A stretch of 64,000 nucleotides of DNA from an uncultured Nitrososphaerales archaeon (lineage in GTDB: Archaea; Thermoproteota; Nitrososphaeria; Nitrososphaerales; Nitrosocaldaceae). Below, piece after piece: positions 507 through 11,086 of this stretch (the first letter of the stretch is position 1; each line of letters begins with the position of its first letter). Made by a program: the position numbers and the translations under genes. The stretch lies in NCBI GenBank assembly GCA_938030895.1, contig CALHIV010000011.1, positions 62,001 to 126,000 of the forward strand, written 5' to 3'. The notes under the pieces were generated by a model. That model did not search any database and was not told where the DNA came from. It saw nothing but the letters and a program-made list of their open reading frames with translations.

Positions 507-932
507 CTATTTGATAGGTGAACCTCTACTCGTGCCCTCTCCCTTCTCGCCTACCTTCTTTCTTTCTTCTTGCCTCTCCTTCCTCGCAATACTCAAGATA
601 TATGATGCTAGTCCTATATATGCTCCTTGCATAATCTGTGTTGCTATACCAAATTCATTTATGGGTAATGCTCTCTCTGTTACTGGGTTTGGGAATCTAG
701 TTATAGTCCATAGTGCAATCAATGCAGCGTTACCACCAATACCTATGTAGAGCCAGTAACTTGGCCATCGCTTGATCGATGGTATGATCCAGAATAACTG
801 AGCAACTCCTGCTACCAAGAATAGTATCGCTGCAGGGAAGAACCTATCCCATAGCATAGGTGCCATCACCAGATGTATAATCCCTGCTACCCCTATGGTT
901 GCTGCTGATGCGTAATATACTATCTTGCCCAT
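507..932 (-). CDS. Small four-helix membrane protein
   Basis: This 141-residue protein has four hydrophobic segments (about residues 6-25, 32-52, 60-80 and 100-118), short loops and a very basic/acidic cytosolic tail (RKERQEERKK). No catalytic motif is evident and I cannot name a family. A TATA-like box (AAATATATCTTA on the minus strand) lies about 25 bases before the ATG, so the transcript is probably leaderless. It precedes a PH-like protein gene on the same strand, with about 90 bases between them. Function unknown, membrane location clear. Confidence 0.65.
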   Translation of the reverse strand: MGKIVYYASAATIGVAGIIHLVMAPMLWDRFFPAAILFLVAGVAQLFWIIPSIKRWPSYWLYIGIGGNAALIALWTITRFPNPVTERALPINEFGIATQIMQGAYIGLASYILSIARKERQEERKKVGEKGEGTSRGSPIK

Positions 933-4444: not shown

Positions 4445-4617
4445 TGGGGCCGCGGGGATTTGAACCCCGGACCGCCAGCGCTCCAGCACTTTGAGCATGG
4501 TCCCCAGGCTCACCACCATTACTGCCATCTACCCATCCAGCCATATCATAGTTCTGGTATCCTAGACCAAGCTCTCCGCCAGCATGCATATCAATGCATA
4601 CTGTAGACGACGGCCCC
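4445..4617 (-). tRNA. tRNA-Pro(GGG) candidate with three introns
   Basis: On the minus strand the ends form a perfect acceptor stem (GGGGCCG/CGGCCCC, discriminator A, no encoded CCA) and a perfect T arm (CGGGG-TTCAAAT-CCCCG). The 173 bases are about 97 too long. Removing 4573-4603 (D loop), 4509-4553 (anticodon stem) and 4480-4500 (after the anticodon loop) leaves 76 bases. These have a D stem GTCT/GGAT, a perfect anticodon stem CCAGC/GCTGG and loop CTGGGGA, that is anticodon GGG with G37, as in proline tRNAs. The D-loop intron folds into a 10-bp hairpin with loop TGAT. Splice points may shift by a base or two. That it is a tRNA is secure, the three-intron model and the anticodon are inference. 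Confidence 0.75.
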
Positions 4618-4640: not shown

Positions 4641-5609
4641 CTATTTATAAAATTTTAAATCGAGTAGGGCAAGGAGTTCATTGAACCTCTCTCTATTCAT
4701 CTCTAACCTGTACCTCCTCAAGGCATCGATCGCCTCATCCCTTCTAGCATATAGATTGAGTATATCTACCAATACTCTACTGCCCCTTCCAAATAAGATG
4801 TAACTTACTGCAGATGTTACGTTCGCTACCCTTCTAGTTGTGCTTGAACTCTCAAAGTCTATTATGTATGGTGCTCCCTTGCTTATCATCACATGCCTAC
4901 TCATATTACTCAACTCACCATGGTCAAGCCCTATGCTATCTAGAAGGAAGCACTGCTCAAGGATATTACTCAGTATAGATCTTATATGAGCAAGATAGTT
5001 GTTGTTGTTATTCTTATTATTGTTGCTATTCTTGTTGTTATTATTGTTGTTATTATTGCTCTCCAATTCCTTAACCAACTCAACCATATGTATACCATCT
5101 ATCAACTCCATAGCAAGGAGGTTCCTGCTGTATGATATGAGTCGTGGACCGATACCAACCCTATTAGCTATGGTAAGCATATCTGCTTCATGCTCCATAC
5201 TTGCTCTACCAGAATCGCTCCTCATCATCTTCAACGCTACAACGGTCTCAGCATCATAAAAGGAATGGTCCTCTACATCATTACTATCGCTCCTATAGGC
5301 TCTATTACTACACCTATCGAGTAGTGCCTTTACCACTATACTGGTACAACCTTTACCAAGAACGTTCAACCCATGTATAACAACATTGCCCTCAAGCAGT
5401 ATCCCCTTCACACCAAGTGCTTCCATCTCTCTAACCTTTGCCCTTGCATCCTCTAGAGCAGTGTTATCACTGTAAGGATATTCTATTAGGTGGATGAAGG
5501 GTTCCCTGAGCAAGTACCCGATCGGTACTATATTACTATTGTTGCTATTGCTAGTACTATTGCTGTTGCTGTTGTTACTGCTATTGCTATTGCTATTGCT
5601 ATTACTCAT
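4641..5609 (-). CDS. Predicted Ser/Thr protein kinase, RIO-like (COG2112 type)
   Basis: Small atypical kinase-fold protein. Visible elements are a lysine in VVALKMM (ATP anchoring), a catalytic-loop-like LDHGELSNMSRHVM, and a metal-site-like YIIDFES. This matches the archaeal COG2112 group related to RIO and lipopolysaccharide kinases. Two low-complexity inserts break it: an N-terminal Ser/Asn run and an Asn/Lys run between the lobes, both encoded by trinucleotide repeats. The start used overlaps the end of the CCA-adding enzyme gene by 8 bases (ATGAGTAA), suggesting translational coupling. An ATG seven codons further upstream is the alternative. Substrate unknown; linkage suggests a tRNA-related role. 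Confidence 0.75.
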   Translation of the reverse strand: MSNSNSNSNSSNNSNSNSTSNSNNSNIVPIGYLLREPFIHLIEYPYSDNTALEDARAKVREMEALGVKGILLEGNVVIHGLNVLGKGCTSIVVKALLDRCSNRAYRSDSNDVEDHSFYDAETVVALKMMRSDSGRASMEHEADMLTIANRVGIGPRLISYSRNLLAMELIDGIHMVELVKELESNNNNNNNNKNSNNNKNNNNNYLAHIRSILSNILEQCFLLDSIGLDHGELSNMSRHVMISKGAPYIIDFESSSTTRRVANVTSAVSYILFGRGSRVLVDILNLYARRDEAIDALRRYRLEMNRERFNELLALLDLKFYK

Positions 5610-7143
5610 CTGCAAATGCAAACCTATCATTTACAAGCATATACTCTATTATCTTCTTTGCTATAGATGCTATACTACTGCTCATGTAACCAGCCTTTAC
5701 ATCTACTCCTTCCCCTCCCCTTTCTATTTCTACTTCTCTTTCTCTTTCTCTTTCTACTTCTCCTTCTACTTCTCTTTCTAGAACCTCATCCCCTGTGAAT
5801 ATCCTGAATCCGTTAACCCTTATATCGTCTAAAAGCCCTTTGCTTATCCCGCTACTCTCTAAGCCCTTGTCCATGATATGGCTGAGCAGATCCTTGGCAT
5901 TATGAAACCTCCTCTCTACCAATGCAAGTAACCTACCGTCCTCATCGTTTATCCATAGTAGTGTACTCCTATTCTTTGAGATGAACCTCTCAGCATTATG
6001 CCTATCGAATACCTTTGGCCCCTGCTTAACCACTAGACGTGGTATAGTTGGAGATTCTAGCATGAAGGATATGAATGCATTTGAGCCATCTGTGTAGCAT
6101 GTGTATCTTAAGACCTTAAAATCGTTGATGGAGAGTTGCCTTACTATAGCATGGGTACTGCTCTTCAACTGACCCCATATTATATCCTCGCTCCTTGGTT
6201 TGTGCTTAAAGTATACTATGATGATGTTGCTGAGATTGCTACGCTCCATCGTGATGATCCTACTAGGCTCATAGGTAGTATATGTGAAGTAGTCTATGCT
6301 AGGCTTCCTAAGGAAGTTCCTTGCTGAGAGTATGAACCTACCAACGCTCTCGTACGATATTGCTAAGCCAAGGTTCCTGTTAGGATCAACAGGATCCAGT
6401 ATTATTATAGGACTACCGTTGCCCCTACTATCATCTCCTCTCTCCTTCTGACCTCTAATCTCTACCCTTGAACCATCATCCATAACACTTGATGCTATAA
6501 CCTCCCTCTCTCTCCATCTAGATGCGCTCTCTAATGTGTTAAGGAAGGAGCCATACCTTAGTATGAGAACCTCACAGACATAGCCAGAGAACCCCTGTAC
6601 TGCTATCTCTGCGCCATACACACCTATCACCTTCATGAACCTCTTGAGCAGTCTAACCTCCCTCCTCTTTGCATCATCTAGGGCATTGAGCATATACTCT
6701 GTATGATACGGACTTCTATCTGCTGCGCTCCTCCATCTACCTATCTCAACATCATAGCATGGTACTATATTGACTCTAACACCATCTACCCTAGCCTCAA
6801 CATAAGGGTGCTGTGCATATCTAAGGTAAGGACTATGCTCATGCAATGCCCTCAATCCAACATCTATAGCGATATGCTCGAACCTCTCCTCATCAACATC
6901 TGGTCTTACCTTCAGGAATATATCAAGATCAACACTCTCAGCAAGCCAAGTATCCTTTGCGTATGAACCAACAAGGATAACATCCCTAACCTCTCTGCTA
7001 TACTCTGCTGCAATATCCCTTACCCTCTTGAGGTAGATCTCTGCTATAGAGTCTATCCTTGCTCTATCAGCCTTACTTGGTTCTACAAGCTTGTACGCTT
7101 CCCTAATGATATTGCCAAGTTCGGTTGGTTGCATAGGTTGCAT
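5602..7143 (-). CDS. cca: CCA-adding enzyme (archaeal class I tRNA nucleotidyltransferase)
   Basis: Adds CCA to tRNA 3' ends using CTP and ATP, without a nucleic-acid template. The nucleotidyltransferase core is clear: LVGSYAKDTWLAESVDLDIF (residues 57-76) with catalytic Asp72 and Asp74, and a third acidic residue expected in NIVPCYDVE. The middle and tail regions follow the archaeal class. Length is 513, somewhat long because of a Glu/Arg/Val repeat insert near residues 460-485. Since the intron-bearing tRNA nearby has no encoded CCA, the enzyme is needed for it. It is downstream of thpR (61-base gap) and overlaps the kinase gene, so the three probably form one transcript. Confidence 0.95.
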   Translation of the reverse strand: MQPMQPTELGNIIREAYKLVEPSKADRARIDSIAEIYLKRVRDIAAEYSREVRDVILVGSYAKDTWLAESVDLDIFLKVRPDVDEERFEHIAIDVGLRALHEHSPYLRYAQHPYVEARVDGVRVNIVPCYDVEIGRWRSAADRSPYHTEYMLNALDDAKRREVRLLKRFMKVIGVYGAEIAVQGFSGYVCEVLILRYGSFLNTLESASRWREREVIASSVMDDGSRVEIRGQKERGDDSRGNGSPIIILDPVDPNRNLGLAISYESVGRFILSARNFLRKPSIDYFTYTTYEPSRIITMERSNLSNIIIVYFKHKPRSEDIIWGQLKSSTHAIVRQLSINDFKVLRYTCYTDGSNAFISFMLESPTIPRLVVKQGPKVFDRHNAERFISKNRSTLLWINDEDGRLLALVERRFHNAKDLLSHIMDKGLESSGISKGLLDDIRVNGFRIFTGDEVLEREVEGEVEREREREVEIERGGEGVDVKAGYMSSSIASIAKKIIEYMLVNDRFAFADE

Positions 7144-7204
7144 ATCTTATCCTATCCTATACTCTCTTCCTTCATTTAACTCAACCTCTATATCATAAGA
7201 TGAG

Positions 7205-7804
7205 TTATGCAATACCTTTTATACTGAACATATCGGTGTATACAGGACCTTCCTGTCTCAGGTCACTCTTCTTCACCTTTATCTCATCAAGTATATCATG
7301 ACCAAAGTATCTATCACCATATCTCCTTATGGTAGTGGAGATGATCTCACCAATACTCTCTCCTGTGATCGACCTTCTTGCTCTCATTAGCATACTACTA
7401 CCCTCCTTAACCCTAAGGAGTGTTATATGAGGGGTGAACTGCTTATCGCTCTTGAAGCCCAGAGGCTTCAATCTATCCTCAACCTCCCTTGCTATACCTG
7501 TGAGTCTTGATGCAGCATTAGGGTCAACGCCAACCCAGATAATCCGAGGATGCTTTATGCTGGGGAATACACCTATACCCTTGTATGCAACGCTCACTGG
7601 TTCAAATACCATGCTGGAGAGCCTCTCCTTCACCCTCTCAAGCATTATAGAGTCTATCTCTCCAAGAAATAGTAGTGTAAAGTGTAACTGCTCCTTGCTC
7701 ACTGGTCTTGCATCCAGCCCTAGACTTAGGAACTCTCTCTGCACAGTGAGCATACTCCCTATCGAGTCCTCATCCTTGACATCCATTGCAATAAATGTAC
7801 GCAT
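7205..7804 (-). CDS. thpR: RNA 2',3'-cyclic phosphodiesterase (LigT/ThpR)
   Basis: Two-histidine phosphoesterase that opens 2',3'-cyclic phosphate ends on RNA, such as those made in tRNA splicing. The twin H-x-T motifs are present: HFTLLFLG (His41/Thr43) and HITLLRV (His126/Thr128). Length, 199 residues, is normal. It lies just upstream of the CCA-adding enzyme on the same strand, a sensible pairing of tRNA end-processing functions beside a tRNA with introns. Start is the ATG giving MRTFIAMDV, the usual beginning of the family. Confidence 0.92.
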   Translation of the reverse strand: MRTFIAMDVKDEDSIGSMLTVQREFLSLGLDARPVSKEQLHFTLLFLGEIDSIMLERVKERLSSMVFEPVSVAYKGIGVFPSIKHPRIIWVGVDPNAASRLTGIAREVEDRLKPLGFKSDKQFTPHITLLRVKEGSSMLMRARRSITGESIGEIISTTIRRYGDRYFGHDILDEIKVKKSDLRQEGPVYTDMFSIKGIA

Positions 7805-7892
7805 ACTATGCTGTAATTATAGTCTGACTTATATAGGCCTAACTCACTCGTTCTACAAAGGCTATAATAACGCTTAGAGGGAGATCATAAGG

Positions 7893-8531
7893 ATGAAGGA
7901 TAGACCCCTCATAGTCTGTATAACTGGTCTACCTGGTGCAGGCAAGACTACGGTAGCGAATGCACTAAAGGATATAGGCTTCACAGTGATGAGCATGGGT
8001 GATGTTGTGAGGAGGGAGGCTGAGAGGAGGGGGTTGGAGCTTACAGATGCTAACCTAGGAAGGGTTATGCTTGAGTTGAGGAGCATCCATGGACCAGATG
8101 CAATAGCCATTCTAGTTGGTGAAGATATAAAGAGATTGAATGATAGGAGTAAGGGTAGTGATAAGAGTAACGATGGTAGTGGGAGCACTTACGACTATCG
8201 TACATGCTACTTTGCTATCGATGGACTAAGGAGTATCAGGGAGGCTGAGAGGCTCAAGGAGTATGGTATAGTTAAGGTACTTGCAGTTCATGCATCAAGA
8301 GAGAGGAGGTTCAACTTCCTTGTTAAGAGGGGGAGGAGTGATGCACCATCTGATATCAAGGAGTTCGATTCAAGGGATAGGAGAGAGATGGACGTTGGTA
8401 TAGCAGAGGCTATAGTATTATCAGATGCCATAGTCAGCAATGATACAACCATAGATGAACTGGTAAGGCATGCTCTAACCATAGTTAAATCCTGGATCGA
8501 AGAGTATGATAAGGACTGCAAGAGTAGGTAA
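7893..8531 (+). CDS. UPF0200-type nucleoside/adenylate kinase-like P-loop protein
   Basis: P-loop kinase with Walker A GLPGAGKTT (residues 12-20) near the N-terminus, followed by a dephospho-CoA/adenylate-kinase-like pattern (VVRREAERRG, GPDAIAILVGEDI, FAIDGLRSIREAE, VLAVHASRERRF). This is the archaeal UPF0200 family, fused to UPF0201 in some archaea. Here the UPF0201 gene is the next one, which supports the call. A Ser/Asp/Gly/Asn-rich insert (about residues 86-108) interrupts the fold and is encoded by trinucleotide repeats. Substrate is not known with certainty. Confidence 0.85.
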   Translation: MKDRPLIVCITGLPGAGKTTVANALKDIGFTVMSMGDVVRREAERRGLELTDANLGRVMLELRSIHGPDAIAILVGEDIKRLNDRSKGSDKSNDGSGSTYDYRTCYFAIDGLRSIREAERLKEYGIVKVLAVHASRERRFNFLVKRGRSDAPSDIKEFDSRDRREMDVGIAEAIVLSDAIVSNDTTIDELVRHALTIVKSWIEEYDKDCKSR

Positions 8532-8535
8532 GCGC

Positions 8536-8606
8536 AAGATGATATGATATTAATGATATGATTTATATGATTTATATGATATGATTTATATGATCATCAT
8601 GATCAT
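8536..8606. repeat. TATATGATT tandem repeats and a palindrome
   Basis: Several copies of TGATTTATA/TGATATGA are followed by a near-perfect 17-base palindrome, ATGATCAT-C-ATGATCAT (8590-8606). The palindrome is about 55 bases before the UPF0201 start and 20 bases before its TATA-like box, a position where an activator or repressor dimer could bind. Confidence 0.5.
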
Positions 8607-8659
8607 GGTTAAAGAGCAGTATACAAACTTATTAACTCTATTGTTACTATGTATTAATA

Positions 8660-9079
8660 ATGGCTGAGACAGGTTCAGGATCATCAATGCTAGAGGTTGA
8701 ATGTGAATGTAATATCTACCCATCTGAGGATCTGAACAAGGTTATAAAGGCTATAAAGAATGTGATAGATGTGCCTGAGGTTGTGCATGGGGATGGTATA
8801 GTTAGGGCAAAGGCCATAGTTGGTATGGATTCACTATCAAATATGAAGAGGCAGATACGATCAAGGCAGGTGATGGATACGTTCAGGAGGATAATGCTTG
8901 AGAATGAGAGCAAGGATGGTTATTCTACATGGCTGTACCTTAACAAGCAGGCTGCATATGCTGGCTCCATAGTTGTATGCGAAGATGCAGATGAGTCTCC
9001 ATTGGGGCCTATAAGGCTAGTTATAAAGGGTAGAGGCATGAAGGTTAGGAAGGTTATAGACTGGCTTACAAGATGCTGA
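8660..9079 (+). CDS. UPF0201 family RNA-associated protein
   Basis: 139-residue protein whose first half (LEVECECNIYPSEDLNKVIKAI region) is the typical opening of archaeal UPF0201, a small alpha/beta protein with a ferredoxin-like part and a charged C-terminal half. The family is fused to UPF0200 in some archaea and has been tied to RNA metabolism. The exact activity is not known. TATA-like AACTTATTA is centred about 28 bases before the ATG, so it has its own leaderless promoter although it follows UPF0200. Confidence 0.85.
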   Translation: MAETGSGSSMLEVECECNIYPSEDLNKVIKAIKNVIDVPEVVHGDGIVRAKAIVGMDSLSNMKRQIRSRQVMDTFRRIMLENESKDGYSTWLYLNKQAAYAGSIVVCEDADESPLGPIRLVIKGRGMKVRKVIDWLTRC

Positions 9080-9165
9080 ATTAACTGACAGCAATAGCAT
9101 ACAGATTACTGATTACAGATCGATAATGATAACTGACTATCGTTATAATGATAATGGACCTCAAT

Positions 9166-10077
9166 CTATGGGTAAGGCACCTCTATAACCATCATATCCT
9201 CTGCTGCAATAACGTTGCTATGCACAGTGGACGCCTCCTTAACCAACTTGCTCACATCATCGTACCTTGCACTAAAATGTGTAAGCACTAACATCTTAGC
9301 ACCAGTGCTAGAAGCAAGTTCCGCAGCCTCTCTGGCGGTTGAGTGCATGGTCTCTAATGCTCTATCCTTCTCATCCTCGCTGAATGTTGAGTCGAATATG
9401 AGGAGATCACAGCCCTTGAAGAACTCCTCAAGCCTCTTGTTTGCCCTAGTATCTCCAGATATTCCTATCCTTCTACCCTTCCTCTTAGGTCCTGTAACAT
9501 CACTTGATCTTACTAGCCTTCCATTAACGATGACATCATCACCGTGCTGTAGCCTATGCCATAACCTGCCTTTAGGGACCCCTAACTCTATAGCCTTCTC
9601 AGGATAGAATATGCCAGGCCTATCATGCTCCTCTAGGCAGTATGCGTAAGAGTGTACTGTATGCTCTGCACTACATGCCTTGATGGTGTACTCCTTCTCC
9701 TCCACAACCACACCCTCCCTTACTTCTTTAAAGTATACATCGTACGTAAGGTTGATGTTAAGTAGCCTTGTATTCACATCTATATACTCCTTCAATACCC
9801 CCGGCCCATATATGTAGAGAGGCGTATCTCTACCATTCAATGCTAGGGTCTGCATGAAACCTAGTAAGCCTAGTACGTGATCACTATGCATATGGGTTAT
9901 GAATACCTTCATGCCTCTATTCATGCCTAGACCACTCTGTAGGAAGTTCCTCTGCATCCCTTCTCCAGCATCAAATATGAAGAGTTCGCCACCTCTCTGC
10001 ACTACTATGGATGTTAAGCCTCTCTTCGATGTTGGTACTGCAGATGATGTGCCTAGGAAGACTATCCTAAGCTGCAT
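9166..10077 (-). CDS. rnz: Ribonuclease Z (tRNA 3' processing endonuclease)
   Basis: Zn-dependent metallo-beta-lactamase-fold nuclease that cuts 3' trailers from pre-tRNA, giving the end on which the CCA-adding enzyme acts. The motif THMHSDH (His62, His64, Asp66, His67) is intact, as are AEHTVHS and later HFSARYDD. The start is at MQLRIVFLGTSSAVP, which is how the family begins. A longer in-frame extension upstream would run into prs and is hydrophobic, so I reject it. The gene starts 13 bases after the prs stop codon and is the last gene of the queC-queE-folE-prs-rnz run. Confidence 0.95.
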   Translation of the reverse strand: MQLRIVFLGTSSAVPTSKRGLTSIVVQRGGELFIFDAGEGMQRNFLQSGLGMNRGMKVFITHMHSDHVLGLLGFMQTLALNGRDTPLYIYGPGVLKEYIDVNTRLLNINLTYDVYFKEVREGVVVEEKEYTIKACSAEHTVHSYAYCLEEHDRPGIFYPEKAIELGVPKGRLWHRLQHGDDVIVNGRLVRSSDVTGPKRKGRRIGISGDTRANKRLEEFFKGCDLLIFDSTFSEDEKDRALETMHSTAREAAELASSTGAKMLVLTHFSARYDDVSKLVKEASTVHSNVIAAEDMMVIEVPYP

Positions 10078-10090
10078 AGGTACCAACCTA

Positions 10091-11086
10091 CTAATATGTG
10101 GATATGCTACTACTGCTGCTACTGCTCTTACTACTACTGCCTTCATTACCACTGCTATTGAGTATGCTAAGCAATGCTGATGCTGCCAATGGAGCAACAT
10201 CTACTATCCTACTTACCTTATTTGGTATAGTATTTGTAGCAGCCACATCACTTGCTCCACTCTCCTTTATCTTCTCGAGCGCGCCATTGAGCATGAGTGC
10301 ATGAGTACATGTAACATGCACCCTCTTGCATCCATACCCAAGCAGTGCTCTTGCAGCTTCCACAACACTGCTACCAGTGCTTATCATATCGTCCACAACT
10401 ATTGCTATCTTACCATTCAGAGTATCCTTCATCTTGTTAAGCATATCATAATCAATATTTACGCTCCCAGTAATCCTATCCCTGCTCTTCCTTAACGCTA
10501 TGGAGTTGCACCTGAGTATCCTTGCAAATGCCTCAGCCCTCTCTACGCCCCCAGCATCTGGTGATACACTTACAACATCATCAACATCTACACCCTCCTC
10601 TGCAAGTCTATCCTTGAAGTACTCAGCAAGCAGTGGTACTGCGGATATGTTATGCACAGGTATGGTGAAGTATGATAATGCCAGTCTGCTATGTGCATCG
10701 AATGTTACAATGGCATCGATACCATATGATGAGATTATGCCTGCTATAGTCTCTATGCTAACCACTTCACCAGCAAGGAACTCCCTATCCTGCCTTGCAT
10801 AGCCTAGATAGGGTATCACTGCAACTACTCTAGATGCTACCTTGCTGACCTTGGATAGCATGAAGAATAGCTGCATTGTATGAGTATCCACTGGGGGGTA
10901 TGTTGATTGTACGACTACCACATCCTCTCCATCAAGGGGTTCTGCTATCCTTATCTTGCTCTCGCCATCTGGGAATACTCTTAGATCAACATCAACAAGC
11001 CTTGTATGCTCATTACCAGCAAGTATATCTGCTATACCCTTTGCAAGATCTCTAGAGGCTGGACCTGCCAATATGCTTATACCCAT
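10091..11086 (-). CDS. prs: Ribose-phosphate pyrophosphokinase (PRPP synthetase)
   Basis: Makes PRPP from ribose 5-phosphate and ATP, for nucleotide and other pathways. Landmarks are LRVFPDGESKIRI near residue 40, the flexible-loop region GYARQDREF, the PRPP-binding loop IVVDDMISTGSS and the SPDAGGVERA stretch. Length is 331, with the last 25 residues a Ser-rich low-complexity tail (SSSKSSSSSSS) encoded by AGT-type repeats that other family members lack. It sits between folE and rnz on the same strand with short gaps, so co-transcription is likely. Confidence 0.95.
   Translation of the reverse strand: MGISILAGPASRDLAKGIADILAGNEHTRLVDVDLRVFPDGESKIRIAEPLDGEDVVVVQSTYPPVDTHTMQLFFMLSKVSKVASRVVAVIPYLGYARQDREFLAGEVVSIETIAGIISSYGIDAIVTFDAHSRLALSYFTIPVHNISAVPLLAEYFKDRLAEEGVDVDDVVSVSPDAGGVERAEAFARILRCNSIALRKSRDRITGSVNIDYDMLNKMKDTLNGKIAIVVDDMISTGSSVVEAARALLGYGCKRVHVTCTHALMLNGALEKIKESGASDVAATNTIPNKVSRIVDVAPLAASALLSILNSSGNEGSSSKSSSSSSSISTY

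Follow-up and report, generated by a model that had tools for sequence, protein, structure and literature searches.

What does a stretch of DNA encode when its ends form the stems of a tRNA but it is far too long to be one? This question is raised by positions 4445-4617 of a 64,000-nucleotide stretch from an uncultured thermophilic, ammonia-oxidising archaeon, a Nitrosocaldus of the family Nitrosocaldaceae (contig CALHIV010000011.1; the whole stretch is hereafter called the window), where an initial annotation made from the sequence alone had proposed a tRNA-Pro(GGG) apparently split by three introns. Our comparative analysis of the gene's anatomy, its conservation, the pairing at its splice sites and the enzyme genes of the genome indicates that the locus is almost certainly a functional single-copy tRNA-Pro(GGG) gene with splicing-endonuclease introns at 13/14, 30/31 and 37/38.

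Detection and anatomy of the gene

ARAGORN and Rfam, run with default settings over the whole window, missed the Pro-GGG gene and reported a tRNA-Gly only. The intron mode of ARAGORN returned a false 2.6-kb tRNA-Leu(caa), which joined the 3' end of the gene to distant sequence. We used a spliced alignment in which the profile was built from two intron-free orthologs only (L046 and L049); introns were penalised, and a 4-bp splice helix earned a bonus. The window gene scored 65.8 and was divided by three introns at the sites given above. When its interior was shuffled, with the 5' strand of the acceptor stem and the sequence from the last exons onward left intact, the maximum score was 51.6 (n=250), full-gene shuffles reached at most 24.8 (n=150), and other stretches of the window at most 25.4 (n=199). 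A chance origin of the three-intron match is excluded by the shuffle controls.

The four exons, when joined, gave a complete cloverleaf of 76 nt, which ARAGORN called as tRNA-Pro(ggg). The proposed three-intron gene is thus borne out by intron-free orthologs, by conservation in seven Nitrosocaldaceae, by pairing and by shuffling; the coordinates, the lengths of the three segments and of the product, the anticodon with G37, and the placing of one intron in the D loop and of the others in the anticodon stem and just after the loop were all as annotated. The strand, which had not been given, is the minus strand. The first intron carries the inner 10-bp hairpin ascribed to it (CAGTATGCAT/ATGCATGCTG).

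Table 1. Parts and neighbours of the tRNA-Pro(GGG) gene in window coordinates.
Feature	Position	Strand	Description
tRNA-Pro(GGG) gene	4445-4617	-	173 nt, three introns
exon 1	4605-4617	-	tRNA positions 1-13, GGGGCCGTCGTCT; same in 7/7 Nitrosocaldaceae; spliced alignment
intron 1	4574-4604	-	31 nt, Sprinzl 13/14, D loop; splice-motif pairing, central helix U8-U11 with GCGG
exon 2	4554-4573	-	positions 14-30 including 17a, 20a and 20b, AGCTTGGTCTAGGATACCAG; same in 6/6 Nitrosocaldus
intron 2	4509-4553	-	45 nt, 30/31, anticodon stem; central helix UACC:GGUG
exon 3	4502-4508	-	positions 31-37, CCTGGGG, anticodon GGG and G37; spliced alignment, intron-free orthologs
intron 3	4481-4501	-	21 nt, canonical 37/38; central helix CUGG:CUGG (two G-U pairs)
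exon 4	4445-4480	-	positions 38-73, CGCTGGCGGTCCGGGGTTCAAATCCCCGCGGCCCCA, T arm and 3' acceptor strand; same in 6/6 Nitrosocaldus; recovered by spliced query
TATA-box-like TTTTATAAA	4644-4652	-	about 31 nt upstream of G1; kept in 6/6 Nitrosocaldus
RIO-like protein	4641-5630	-	upstream of tRNA
archaeal CCA-adding enzyme	5602-7143	-	upstream of tRNA
RNA 2',3'-cyclic phosphodiesterase	7205-7804	-	upstream of tRNA
RNase Z	9166-10200	-	upstream of tRNA

The gene adjoins a run of tRNA- and RNA-processing genes together with that of the RIO-like protein (4641-10200, all on the minus strand), and the TATA-like box sits within the last codons of the RIO-like ORF. Low-complexity insertions were seen between 4999 and 5781, as Asn/Ser codon repeats in the RIO-like ORF and as Glu/Arg runs at the end of the CCA-enzyme ORF.

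Conservation, splice-site pairing and alternative readings

The family was sampled with seven genomes, six Nitrosocaldus species including that of the window and one of the sister genus Nitrosothermus. All seven gave a match, and each resolved into three introns by spliced alignment, at the same three positions in Nitrosothermus as in Nitrosocaldus. The exons are identical across the six Nitrosocaldus species; the loops and lengths of the introns vary. Intron 1 spans 28-33 nt in congeners and 22 nt in Nitrosothermus, intron 2 spans 25-47 nt among Nitrosocaldus and 13 nt in Nitrosothermus, and intron 3 spans 20-27 nt in congeners and 12 nt in Nitrosothermus, where it carries CUAG. A box C/D RNA within intron 2 was considered and rejected, because the loop is unconserved and, in relatives, shortened to 25 or 13 nt. 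Since three introns are present in every sampled genome, the triple-intron state is at least as old as the family ancestor, as sampled. The predicted triple-intron trait is therefore one of the Nitrosocaldaceae, beyond the window genome alone.

The central helix of 4 bp between exon and intron pairs for all three introns in 7/7 species, G-U pairs included. Changes on both sides of these helices were found: in intron 2, A26-U is replaced by G26-C (TACC:GGTG to TGCC:GGCG), with UGCC:GGCG in Nitrosothermus, and relatives with the 30/31 intron replace C27-G by U27-A (UGUC:GACG). At 37/38, C32-G becomes U32-A in one ortholog (UUGG:CCAA, L052), another showing CUGG:CCAG (L135), and the 13/14 intron of a more distant family has ACGG where the window gene has GCGG. 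The search for bulge-helix-bulge (BHB) motifs that the initial annotation had suggested thus yielded BHB-type pairing at the splice sites throughout the family, with compensatory changes across the order. In intron 3, tRNA positions 32-35 pair with CTGG of the intron; pairing of the first anticodon bases with the intron belongs to the textbook BHB at 37/38 (PMC4090602).

Some of the motifs are relaxed, intron 1 having no outer helix and intron 3 having a bulge enlarged to 4 nt in addition to its two G-U central pairs. The modelled motif of intron 1 lies at most 1.4 kcal/mol above the minimum-energy fold, and those of introns 2 and 3 lie about 4.5-6 kcal/mol above it; the minimum-energy folds alone show no ideal motif for introns 2 and 3. 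Introns 2 and 3 would therefore be relaxed substrates, of the kind that two-subunit splicing endonucleases accept (PMC4090602). With such relaxed forms included, the gene has the 4-bp central helix and the predicted cleavage sites in 3-nt bulges of an archaeal BHB-intron tRNA, and once the introns are removed, the cloverleaf of a single isoacceptor is fully restored. Because an A is repeated at the D-loop junction, this junction is ambiguous by one nucleotide, cuts at 13/14 and at 14/15 giving the same product; we prefer 13/14 because only this cut yields the 4-bp central helix. For intron 3, a cut at 38/39 was rejected on inspection as the helix fails.

Searching the window genome, which is 98.7% complete, for another Pro-GGG gene, an intact copy of which had been named as a possible refutation, we found none. 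Its other proline tRNAs are Pro-CGG (L012), which is uninterrupted, and Pro-TGG (L125; G000:C4, about 761-910, minus strand), which also carries an insertion in the D arm. Near-identical introns of 37 and 36 nt are present in tRNA-Ala(TGC) and tRNA-Ala(CGC) (L014 and L015), a likeness that suggests gene duplication or intron copying.

If the locus were a decayed or disrupted pseudogene and an intact Pro-GGG gene lay elsewhere, the silence of the standard tRNA finders would be easily understood, but the exons would hardly stay the same in six species while the introns drift, nor would pairing at the splice sites be kept by compensatory changes, and the near-complete genome holds no further Pro-GGG. 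Conservation has for the most part refuted this reading already, and we consider it highly improbable. A real three-intron tRNA-Pro(GGG) in which one junction lies at least one nucleotide away from our model is also unlikely, if less so: the repeated A at the D-loop junction and the weak pairing of intron 3 speak for it, but the sequence of the product is fixed by the intron-free orthologs, making alternatives that change the product unlikely.

The introns might in addition serve a purpose beyond being removed, for example by keeping mobile elements from integrating into the tRNA gene or by yielding intron RNAs with a function of their own. In Thaumarchaeota, tRNA genes are a frequent target of mobile elements, accounting for 39 of 68 defined integration sites (PMC6563490), and intron gain as a protection was proposed earlier (PMC3293823). 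However, no intron interrupts the 3' part most used as an attachment site, here the 36 nt that follow intron 3, and the intron loops are unconserved. We regard such an added purpose as doubtful, though slightly less so than a misplaced junction; it would come on top of a functional gene with three spliced introns and not replace it.

Processing enzymes and a proposed maturation pathway

The window genome encodes two proteins of the EndA family (PF01974), of 197 and 226 aa. The 197-aa protein has the Tyr/His/Lys catalytic residues, and its closest archaeal structures are 3p1z and 3ajv (best E 5e-44, for 3p1z, a splicing endonuclease of known structure); the 226-aa protein is without the His. 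This pair is predicted to form an endonuclease of the two-subunit type able to cut non-canonical sites. There is one RtcB gene (E 3e-183), whose product is the predicted exon ligase. The RtcB gene and that of the catalytic EndA subunit are about 4.5 kb or less apart (G000:C4:72119-76523).

Transcription, cleavage, the order of removal and ligation we infer as follows. The precursor would be transcribed from the conserved TATA box, and a heteromeric (alpha-beta)2 tRNA splicing endonuclease would cut at bulge-helix-bulge or relaxed motifs, after which RtcB would join the four exons. The 30/31 intron is probably removed before the 37/38 intron: the motif at 37/38 relies on the anticodon stem for support, and this stem is complete only after C31 joins G30. 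CCA would then be added by the CCA-adding enzyme, since none is encoded in the window gene. The three nucleotides after A73 are TCA in the window genome (4442-4444) versus CCA in 5/5 congeners.

Orthologs in the order and known multi-intron tRNAs

Intron-free Pro-GGG orthologs are found in the order (L046, L049, L069 and L140), and L046 and L049 have the same 76-nt layout as the spliced window product. Orthologs with one intron carry it in the D arm at 13/14 (L037, L038) or near 15/16 (L043), in the anticodon stem at 29/30 (L040, L041, L045, L134) or 30/31 (L039, L060, L131-L133), at 37/38 (L052, L135), or at 45/46 (L136, L137). Another ortholog, L130, appears to have two introns. The introns of L136 (G156) and L137 (G069) are identical over 21 nt in genomes assigned to two different families, possibly through transfer or contamination.

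In a MAG of another family of the order (G022), the Pro-GGG gene L050 (G022:C30, minus strand, 178 nt; the whole gene is also in L098) has predicted introns of 49, 16, 17 and 20 nt at 15/16, 20b/21, 30/31 and 37/38, and its spliced product is called tRNA-Pro(ggg) by ARAGORN. It is the sole Pro-GGG seen there, the other proline genes being TGG and CGG (L076, L101); G033, the one further genome sampled from the same family, gave no readable Pro-GGG. A single D-arm intron in L050 was rejected, as neither flank supplies G18-G19. With the D-arm insert shuffled, 0 of 400 shuffles reached the real score, by a small margin (71.8 against 69.0). We treat the four-intron L050 as a candidate only, because its D-arm intron pair rests on one MAG and on this modest margin. 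The sites and counts of introns differ among the orthologs, and position and number are therefore evolving within one isoacceptor. It is somewhat more probable than not that, within the order, introns accumulate preferentially in tRNA-Pro(GGG) as a hotspot, ranging from zero through three introns (Nitrosocaldaceae) to four (L050), the last of which would lie above the published maximum.

Two accounts put the number of introns that archaeal tRNA genes carry at up to three (PMC8450103; PMC4033280), and triple-intron tRNAs are known from Pyrobaculum (PMC4390854). The closest likeness is tRNA-Pro(UGG) of Pyrobaculum islandicum, an archaeal proline tRNA that likewise has one canonical and two non-canonical BHB introns (PMC4390854, PMC4090602), but its non-canonical sites are 25/26 and 56/57, as opposed to 13/14 and 30/31 here, and both isoacceptor and phylum differ. 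Pyrobaculum calidifontis tRNA-Glu(UUC) also has three introns, but it is a different tRNA and again from Thermoproteales (PMC4390854). In the related lineage of Caldiarchaeum subterraneum, Leu(UAA), "Glu(CUG)" (as printed) and Thr(GGU) carry multiple introns at canonical and non-canonical sites, including the D arm; these are other tRNAs, and a three-intron Pro-GGG was not reported (PMC3293823). The tRNAscan-SE 2.0 account models thaumarchaeal non-canonical tRNA introns, of the same phylum and kind as ours, and counts 107 non-canonical introns, but in the part available names no Nitrosocaldus Pro-GGG case (PMC8450103). The literature searched, with partial coverage, contained no description of the Nitrosocaldus gene. 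The N. cavascurensis genome paper lists 29 tRNA genes, and the window genome has 29 above the Rfam cut-off; the equal count suggests, by inference, that disrupted tRNA genes were missed in that paper too.

A triple-intron tRNA in a thaumarchaeon had been expected to be notable. It was indeed found in such a lineage, but the case is less exceptional than expected because multiple non-canonical introns in Thaumarchaeota are already acknowledged (PMC8450103). Multi-intron tRNAs are thus of a kind already known from Thermoproteales and, with less description so far, from Thaumarchaeota, and the window gene is a new, family-conserved case. The practical lesson is that default ARAGORN and Rfam scans miss the gene in this window. 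The four introns of L050, if true, would exceed the archaeal maximum of three published so far. The orthologs have introns at overlapping sites, in numbers of zero, one, probably two, three and apparently four, which makes it directly testable in what order and by what mechanism introns were gained. For the Nitrosocaldaceae, the finding means that a triple-intron tRNA has been stably retained across a whole thaumarchaeal family and is not a peculiarity of Thermoproteales.
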